Assembly (NCBI RefSeq): GCF_900199405.1
Contig: NZ_LT963430.1
Location: forward strand, 3,069,605-3,133,604
Source of the DNA: Beduinella massiliensis
GTDB taxonomy: Bacteria; Bacillota; Clostridia; Christensenellales; Aristaeellaceae
DNA length: 64,000 nucleotides
Direction of reading: 5' to 3'
In this document: positions 40,898 to 61,661 of the stretch, piece after piece
Layout of the letters: every line of letters starts with the position of its first letter
Position numbering within the stretch: the first letter of the stretch is position 1
Program-made: the position numbers and the translations under genes
Notes under the pieces: model-generated
Database searches by the model: none
The model's input: only the letters and a program-made list of their open reading frames with translations
What the model was told of the DNA's origin: nothing

Positions 40898-40922
40898 ACC
40901 GGCATCGCTGCGCGATGCCGGT
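40898..40922. terminator. Hairpin downstream of the LacI-ribokinase gene
   Basis: ACCGGCATCGC (40898-40908) pairs perfectly with GCGATGCCGGT (40912-40922) with a 3-base loop. On the minus strand it is followed by CTTCTTTTTG, so it also could stop leftward transcripts from nfnB. Confidence 0.6.
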
Positions 40923-41003
40923 TCCAGATGATCGACAAGGTATCGTCATATAAGTAGGTGCAGGAAGGGAGCCTTTGCCTTCATCAAAGTGCGCGAGGCC
41001 CGA

Positions 41004-41099
41004 CCGACCGGCAAAGCCGGTCGATACGATTCCACATGAAGGGGAAGCCTCCCCTTCATGCATCCCCTTTTATAAGACGATACTTTGTCAACGGTCTGA
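41004..41099. repeat. Dispersed hairpin repeat, copy A
   Basis: A 96-base element made of two hairpins: CGACCGGC-AAA-GCCGGTCG (41005-41023) and a CATGAAGGGGA / TCCCCTTCATG stem (41034-41061), then ATACTTTGTCAACGGTCTGA. A near-identical copy (about 5 differences) lies in the opposite orientation at 61391-61487. It does not overlap a gene and ends right at a GC-rich hairpin. Confidence 0.85.
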
Positions 41100-41124
41100 G
41101 GCCCGCCGTCCGGCGGGCCCTTTT
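41100..41124 (+). terminator. Hairpin at the end of the copy A repeat
   Basis: GGCCCGCCG (41100-41108) pairs with CGGCGGGCC (41111-41119), followed by CTTTTG. It lies between the converging LacI-ribokinase and nfnB genes. Confidence 0.65.
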
Positions 41125-61362: not shown

Positions 61363-61366
61363 GCGA

Positions 61367-61390
61367 GACGGCCCTGACATCGGGGCCGTC
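61367..61390. repeat. 24-bp hairpin repeat, left copy (left edge of hairpin cluster)
   Basis: GACGGCCC-TGACATCG-GGGCCGTC, a hairpin of 8 bp. The same 24 bases occur again at 61605-61628, so they bracket a 214-base segment. It also could be a terminator for the upstream gene. Confidence 0.85.
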
Positions 61391-61487
61391 TCAGACCGTT
61401 GACAAAGTATCGCCTTGTAAAAGGGGATGCATGAAGGGGAAGTTTCCCCTTCATGGGGAATCGTATCGACCGGCTTTGCCGGTCGGG
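61391..61487. repeat. Dispersed hairpin repeat, copy B
   Basis: 97 bases that match copy A (41004-41099) in the reverse complement at about 95 percent. It starts with TCAGACCGTTGACAAAG and holds a GCATGAAGGGGA / TCCCCTTCATG stem (61429-61455) and the CGACCGGC-TTT-GCCGGTCG stem (61467-61485). It lies directly beside the left 24-bp hairpin. Confidence 0.85.
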
Positions 61488-61604
61488 CGGGGTGTTTTCC
61501 GTAGTCAAATGCGCAGCATTTGCGGAGGAAAACTTCTCCCGTGACATTCGTGCAAAATGTTTATTCATTTTGCACGAGGCCATCGACTTTGTCGATGGCC
61601 AGTA
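61488..61604. repeat. Hairpin cluster between copy B and the right 24-bp repeat
   Basis: Three further stems follow: GTTTTCC/GGAAAAC with inner CAAATGC/GCATTTG (61494-61533), CGTGCAAAATG/CATTTTGCACG (61549-61576) and GGCCATCGAC/GTCGATGGCC (61578-61600). No reading frame or transposase is present. The region may be a non-autonomous mobile element or a structural DNA or RNA element. Confidence 0.7.
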
Positions 61605-61628
61605 GACGGCCCTGACATCGGGGCCGTC
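61605..61628. repeat. 24-bp hairpin repeat, right copy
   Basis: Identical to 61367-61390. A TTCCTATTTTGG run follows, so it may serve as a terminator, too. Confidence 0.8.
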
Positions 61629-61661
61629 TTCCTATTTTGGCCGGCCGCCCTATCAAACGGG

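Follow-up and report, generated by a model that had tools for sequence, protein, structure and literature searches.

Towards the end of the window, by which we mean the whole 64,000-nucleotide stretch of the Beduinella massiliensis genome that was analyzed, seven hairpins follow one another within 265 bp, and this stretch contains five of the 20 stems of at least 9 bp found in the entire 64 kb. The outermost two hairpins are copies of one 26-bp sequence, AGACGGCCCTGACATCGGGGCCGTCT, at 61366–61391 and 61604–61629, the second being followed by TTCCTATTTT. The original prediction had described these flanks as identical 24-bp repeats separated by 214 bases; sequence comparison confirms their identity, with the length amended to 26 bp and the spacing to 212 bases. 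No convincing coding sequence is present, as had been stated: there are only short overlapping ORFs of 75–81 amino acids and the frame of the next gene, which extends upstream into the segment.

The five inner stems that had been predicted between the flanks can all be located by coordinates, on the plus strand. The first three, P1 (61430–61455), P2 (61461–61490) and P3 (61494–61533, GTTTTCC/GGAAAAC), belong to a conserved structured core at 61425–61540, which is recognized by its covariation and distribution and matches our covariance model R1 with 71.1 bits. An additional stem at 61507–61521 is nested inside P3. They are followed by P4, a perfect 12-bp hairpin (61548–61577), and by a terminal stem (61578–61600). 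Folded as RNA, the 264-nt segment reaches −157 kcal/mol, against −89.9 ± 5.1 kcal/mol for dinucleotide shuffles (z = −13.1), and none of 200 shuffles is equally low.

A dispersed element between duplicated hairpins

When the organism's own genome (4.18 Mb in three contigs) was searched with the window segment, about 40 places besides the 508-bit self match were found, most of them covering the stretch between the two hairpins; the cluster is thus not a structure conserved in place without other copies. Reading the copies with their flanks defines a unit of 211 bp that starts with CAGACC and ends with GGCCAG. None of the copies has a protein-coding gene, and the 211-bp unit holds chance ORFs only. 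Its terminal inverted repeats, CAGACCGTTGACAAAG and CTGGCCATCGACAAAG, are imperfect, and because of these repeats and the absence of a gene we regard the element as a MITE. In the window, the limits taken from the ends of the dispersed matches place it at 61392–61602 on the plus strand, with the left inverted repeat, CAGACCGTTGACAAAGTA, at 61392–61409, and the right one, the reverse complement of which is CTGGCCATCGACAAAGTC, at 61585–61602 on the minus strand; the latter is an imperfect inverted match to the left end and forms part of the terminal stem.

Several of the own-genome copies are truncated, and a few have an extra 50–170 bp of nested stems. The latter are seen in five copies of 259–378 bp, in which GC-rich nested stems, CCTGCTGCGCCCTGC...CTTCGCGTCC, have been inserted in the P2 or the P3 arm; one of the five (L029) has both inserts and still keeps a 37-bp hairpin duplication. 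The window segment had been said to include one copy of a dispersed repeat, correctly so, as a second, 3′-truncated copy is found on the minus strand at 40999–41100 (94% identity over 102 bp), adjoining a hairpin at 41100–41119 and with a core model match at 40965–41066. The surrounding region, 40898–41119, consists of two left halves of the element arranged head to head, one on the plus strand from about 40923 and the other being the minus-strand copy, and each adjoins its own, different terminator hairpin. This arrangement looks like the product of recombination or deletion involving two insertions.

The sequences on either side of the element are informative about how it inserts. Counting only repeats that abut both element ends, we find direct repeats at 20 of 32 near-full copies in the own genome and at none of 400 cross-paired control flanks. 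They are 16–39 bp long (median 26), nine of the 20 are perfect, and a stem of 6 bp or longer is present in 70%, compared with 7% of random segments. The hairpin differs from site to site, yet it is near-identical within a site and whole on both sides. Because each repeat is a different hairpin that has been duplicated whole, the flanks represent the target, which was one of the two origins that had been suggested for them. The other, a duplicated terminator, also holds, as the duplicated target is an intrinsic-terminator stem-loop. The 12 near-full copies in which no duplication is detectable may be read as cases of decay or later rearrangement.

The genomic context is that of terminators. At least four A residues before the left copy and/or at least four T residues after the right copy are present in 19 of the 20 duplications. 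No copy among the 39 scored lies between divergent genes, so that every one is located beyond the 3′ end of at least one gene, as expected for terminators. Between tandem genes, the two orientations of the element stand at 8 versus 17, which amounts to no clear strand preference. The natural reading is that the element enters an intrinsic terminator at its foot and that the entire stem-loop is duplicated in the process. For the window copy, the fact that the two hairpins are still identical suggests a fairly recent event. Neither of the other two genomes in the genus contains a match to the gene next to it, and no empty site was found.

IS1182-family insertion sequences with the same ends

Transposases of the IS1182 type were sought across the GTDB family of the organism, and the search identified insertion sequences in related genomes whose transposase gene sits between CAGACC...ACAAAG or CAGCCTGTCAAA ends. 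Six of these combine CAGACC- or CAGCCTGTCAAA-type ends with duplicated palindromes of 20–32 bp. In one, L104, the left end is identical to that of the MITE in 18 of 18 nucleotides, and outside the ends the interiors of the two are unrelated. The three transposases tested score 438.6, 426.7 and 409.9 bits with the NCBI IS1182 model NF033551, for which the cut-off is 270; PF13751 and PF05598 are matched as well. The composite history that had been proposed for the element is supported in one respect, namely that the insertion sequences with which it has its ends in common are unrelated to its interior; this interior is not a transposon remnant.

The pairing of MITE and insertion sequence recurs in another genus (G034). 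Of the 20 MITE copies read there, both ends were found for 17, and 12 of these are bounded by hairpin repeats of 19–41 bp; IS1182 loci of the same genome carry the same ends as its MITE copies. The window's own genome yielded no intact transposase gene bounded by the exact MITE ends. Decayed IS1182 fragments are present there, and one of them, with the end CAGACCATTAACA, adjoins a perfect 45-bp hairpin. Four similar IS1182 copies in this genome (L070–L073) were considered as the partner and are not supported, as their visible ends do not match those of the MITE. They are 98–99% identical to one another, several adjoin an IS3-type transposase gene, and they end in a fixed hairpin and lack CAGACC ends; they constitute an IS1182 lineage other than that of the presumed partner.

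Taken together, the element is short and gene-less, is dispersed with constant ends, has terminal inverted repeats, duplicates its target and has an autonomous relative with the same ends, all of which are features of a MITE. Among the possibilities that had been raised, a non-autonomous mobile element is therefore well supported by the multiple copies, defined ends and abutting whole-hairpin repeats.

The conserved structured core

A family-wide DNA search detected the central motif in 65 of 300 genomes. The core loci have a common plan, P1 – (A/T)TCGTATCG – P2 – CGGGCGGG – P3 – CATTCC, in which the stems vary freely in sequence yet stay paired and the linkers are near-invariant. P1, for example, differs in sequence between genera with its pairing kept, while the base of P2, TCGTATCG ... 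CGGGCGG, is near-invariant, including three U–G pairs that are conserved on one strand. Such one-strand U–G pairs lean towards RNA or single-stranded DNA. An outer helix closing the three stems (P0, GGGGATG/CATCTCCC) fits the window copies by eye, and is not claimed here as it looked inconsistent in other genera.

Covariance model R1 was built from ten sequences in other genera. In the MAFFT-based alignment of these seeds, which is the more neutral test, double changes are seen in 14 of 32 pairs. Among 79 model matches, whose alignment was fitted to the model, they are seen in 25 of 32 pairs, and the covariation score is 0.413, against 0.113 ± 0.006 when shuffled and at most 0.077 with slid partners. 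The own-genome copies alone (A1) show modest covariation, in 8 of 53 pairs; the strong result comes from the cross-genus alignments. The structure of the core is almost certainly under selection.

Of 100 genomes of the family, 36 have model matches, as do 24 of 50 genera; a carrier has up to 40 copies. None of 244 other genomes of the class has a match. In many other genera, the core is located in elements with ends and duplications that could not be recognized. Among the named carriers are Candidatus Limiplasma pullicola and MAGs with the label Christensenellaceae or Eubacteriales. In Ca. Limiplasma pullicola (nine loci), many core copies have a contig end no more than about 100 bases away, which is what one would expect of near-identical repeats at which an assembly breaks. 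The core motif is also present on three IMG/VR contigs classed as viral. High-copy loci of G008 and G121 (five were read) have inverted or rearranged variants of the motif, AACCGGCAAAGCCGGTCCTGCGGATT, which are possibly a sister element family. In three genomes, core copies lie just upstream of a tmRNA sequence, identified by an Rfam match in one case (L144) and by eye in the other two; a further locus also holds a tmRNA gene, and another a raiA RNA.

For the window and 18 relative loci, Rfam at the gathering score has no family for the element; the families reported at the scanned loci are tRNA, tmRNA and raiA only. With relaxed thresholds, the window copy obtains weak matches only, the best being RsaE (E = 0.079).

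The core is probably of service to the element itself or to its transcript. It is a serious possibility, though short of an even chance, that the core is a device of the element acting at the DNA level: single-stranded or cruciform DNA that has folded and is bound during transposition by the transposase or by a host factor. This would agree with the core being carried by the element in two genera that differ in the end sequences, with its orientation not being fixed relative to transcription, and with the targets of the element themselves being folded hairpins. However, DDE transposition normally needs the ends only, and IS1182 insertion sequences that share these ends are mobile in the absence of the core.

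Alternatively, the core could be primarily a functional host RNA, either a 3′-UTR or an independent small RNA, that IS1182 ends acquired on repeated occasions, with mobility being secondary. The very strong covariation and the combination of near-invariant linkers with one-strand U–G pairs are what one sees in structured RNAs, the core is found in nearly half of the genera scanned, and it is absent from the insertion sequences. Yet relatives have anything between 0 and 40 copies of it, it has no sense-strand preference between tandem genes of the own genome, it has no fixed genomic neighbour apart from a few loci, and it belongs to no Rfam family, so we consider a host RNA rather doubtful. Equally tentative is our own more specific suggestion, that the core is a structured nucleic acid of a new class, either RNA or single-stranded DNA, on which a family of terminator-seeking MITEs functionally depends. 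It might, for example, be the recruiting or regulatory part of a trans-mobilization system in which the DDE transposase recognizes folded DNA in two places, the target and the interior of the element.

Proposed mechanism of insertion and relation to known systems

Very probably, 61366–61629 represents the insertion of a MITE at the base of a terminator stem-loop, two copies of which now flank it, and the MITE was presumably mobilized in trans by an IS1182-type transposase, as the shared ends suggest. In the mechanism that we envisage, an IS1182-type DDE transposase would act in trans on the MITE ends and would join both 3′ ends to both 5′ feet of the hairpin in its extruded or otherwise folded form, after which gap repair would copy the whole hairpin on both sides. 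This route would correspond to pathway b in the model of Wan et al. for IS1272 (PMC5678879). The folded form might be extruded cruciform DNA, a hairpin at a replication fork or another structure. Of the other possibilities that had been raised, a protein recognizing cruciform DNA is plausible at the target site, and a role as RNA is possible for the conserved core. As the left hairpin keeps its upstream A-run and the right hairpin its downstream T-run, transcripts arriving from either side should still end, about 240 nt later. With termination kept from both sides, insertions would be nearly harmless, and terminator duplication can thus account for an element being present at the ends of many genes while hardly disturbing transcription.

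It is very unlikely that the paired hairpins are ordinary tandem terminators of independent origin with the element merely lying between them. Tandem terminators are known, and A/T runs like those of terminators accompany the outer hairpins; however, the repeats lie no more than a few bases from the element ends, hardly differ within a site and are different between sites, have no counterpart in the 400 controls, and follow the same pattern at the insertion sequences and in the second genus. The duplications of the hairpins contradict this origin, and we reject it. REP/BIME-like repeats moved by RAYT (Y1) transposases, or remnants of terminator-targeting group IIC introns, would also be small palindromic intergenic repeats near terminators, but they are scarcely credible here and are rejected because of the hairpin duplications, which to our knowledge neither system makes, the element having in addition terminal inverted repeats and matching IS1182 DDE elements, and the scanned loci giving Rfam matches to tRNA, tmRNA and raiA only.

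The MITE with its duplicated terminator hairpins can be compared with several known systems. Its core resembles the structured RNAs of Rfam 15 in having variable stems with compensatory changes and invariant linkers, and differs from them in having no match at the gathering score. It is a strongly covarying structure, matching no catalogued RNA family and widespread within a single clostridial family. REP/RAYT systems are similar in that small palindromic intergenic repeats are moved in trans; they lack terminal repeats and duplications and have a Y1 partner, whereas the present element has terminal repeats, hairpin duplication and a DDE partner.

The bacterial MITEs RUP, BOX, Chunjie and QMITE (PMC10969869) are likewise short, gene-less, multi-copy and intergenic, with terminal inverted repeats, target duplication and autonomous relatives with the same ends. 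The target duplication of known MITEs, however, is short and of fixed length, while that of the present element is a complete hairpin of variable length (16–41 bp), and its interior is a covarying three-stem core common to several genera.

The closest parallel in target choice is IS1272/TnSha1, which also has an IS1182-family DDE transposase and hairpin targets, often terminators, with no preference for a primary sequence (PMC4923244, PMC5678879); that IS1182 members in general target palindromes is based on these two IS1272 papers, which cite a review. Furi et al. showed that IS1272/TnSha1 enters terminator hairpins, part of which is deleted, and that no duplication results (PMC4923244). In the model of Wan et al., attack on the 3′ feet of a cruciform removes the stem-loop, which is what IS1272 does, and attack on the 5′ feet, considered in the model only, would duplicate it (PMC5678879). 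Where IS1272 removes part or all of the hairpin, the present element retains it whole on both sides, and it is gene-less and carries a conserved structured core. Duplication of the whole hairpin is the outcome that was predicted, and not reported, for IS1272 (PMC5678879). The copies described here provide many natural examples of a DDE element duplicating an entire hairpin, and make the choice of folded DNA by the IS1182 family testable with defined substrates.
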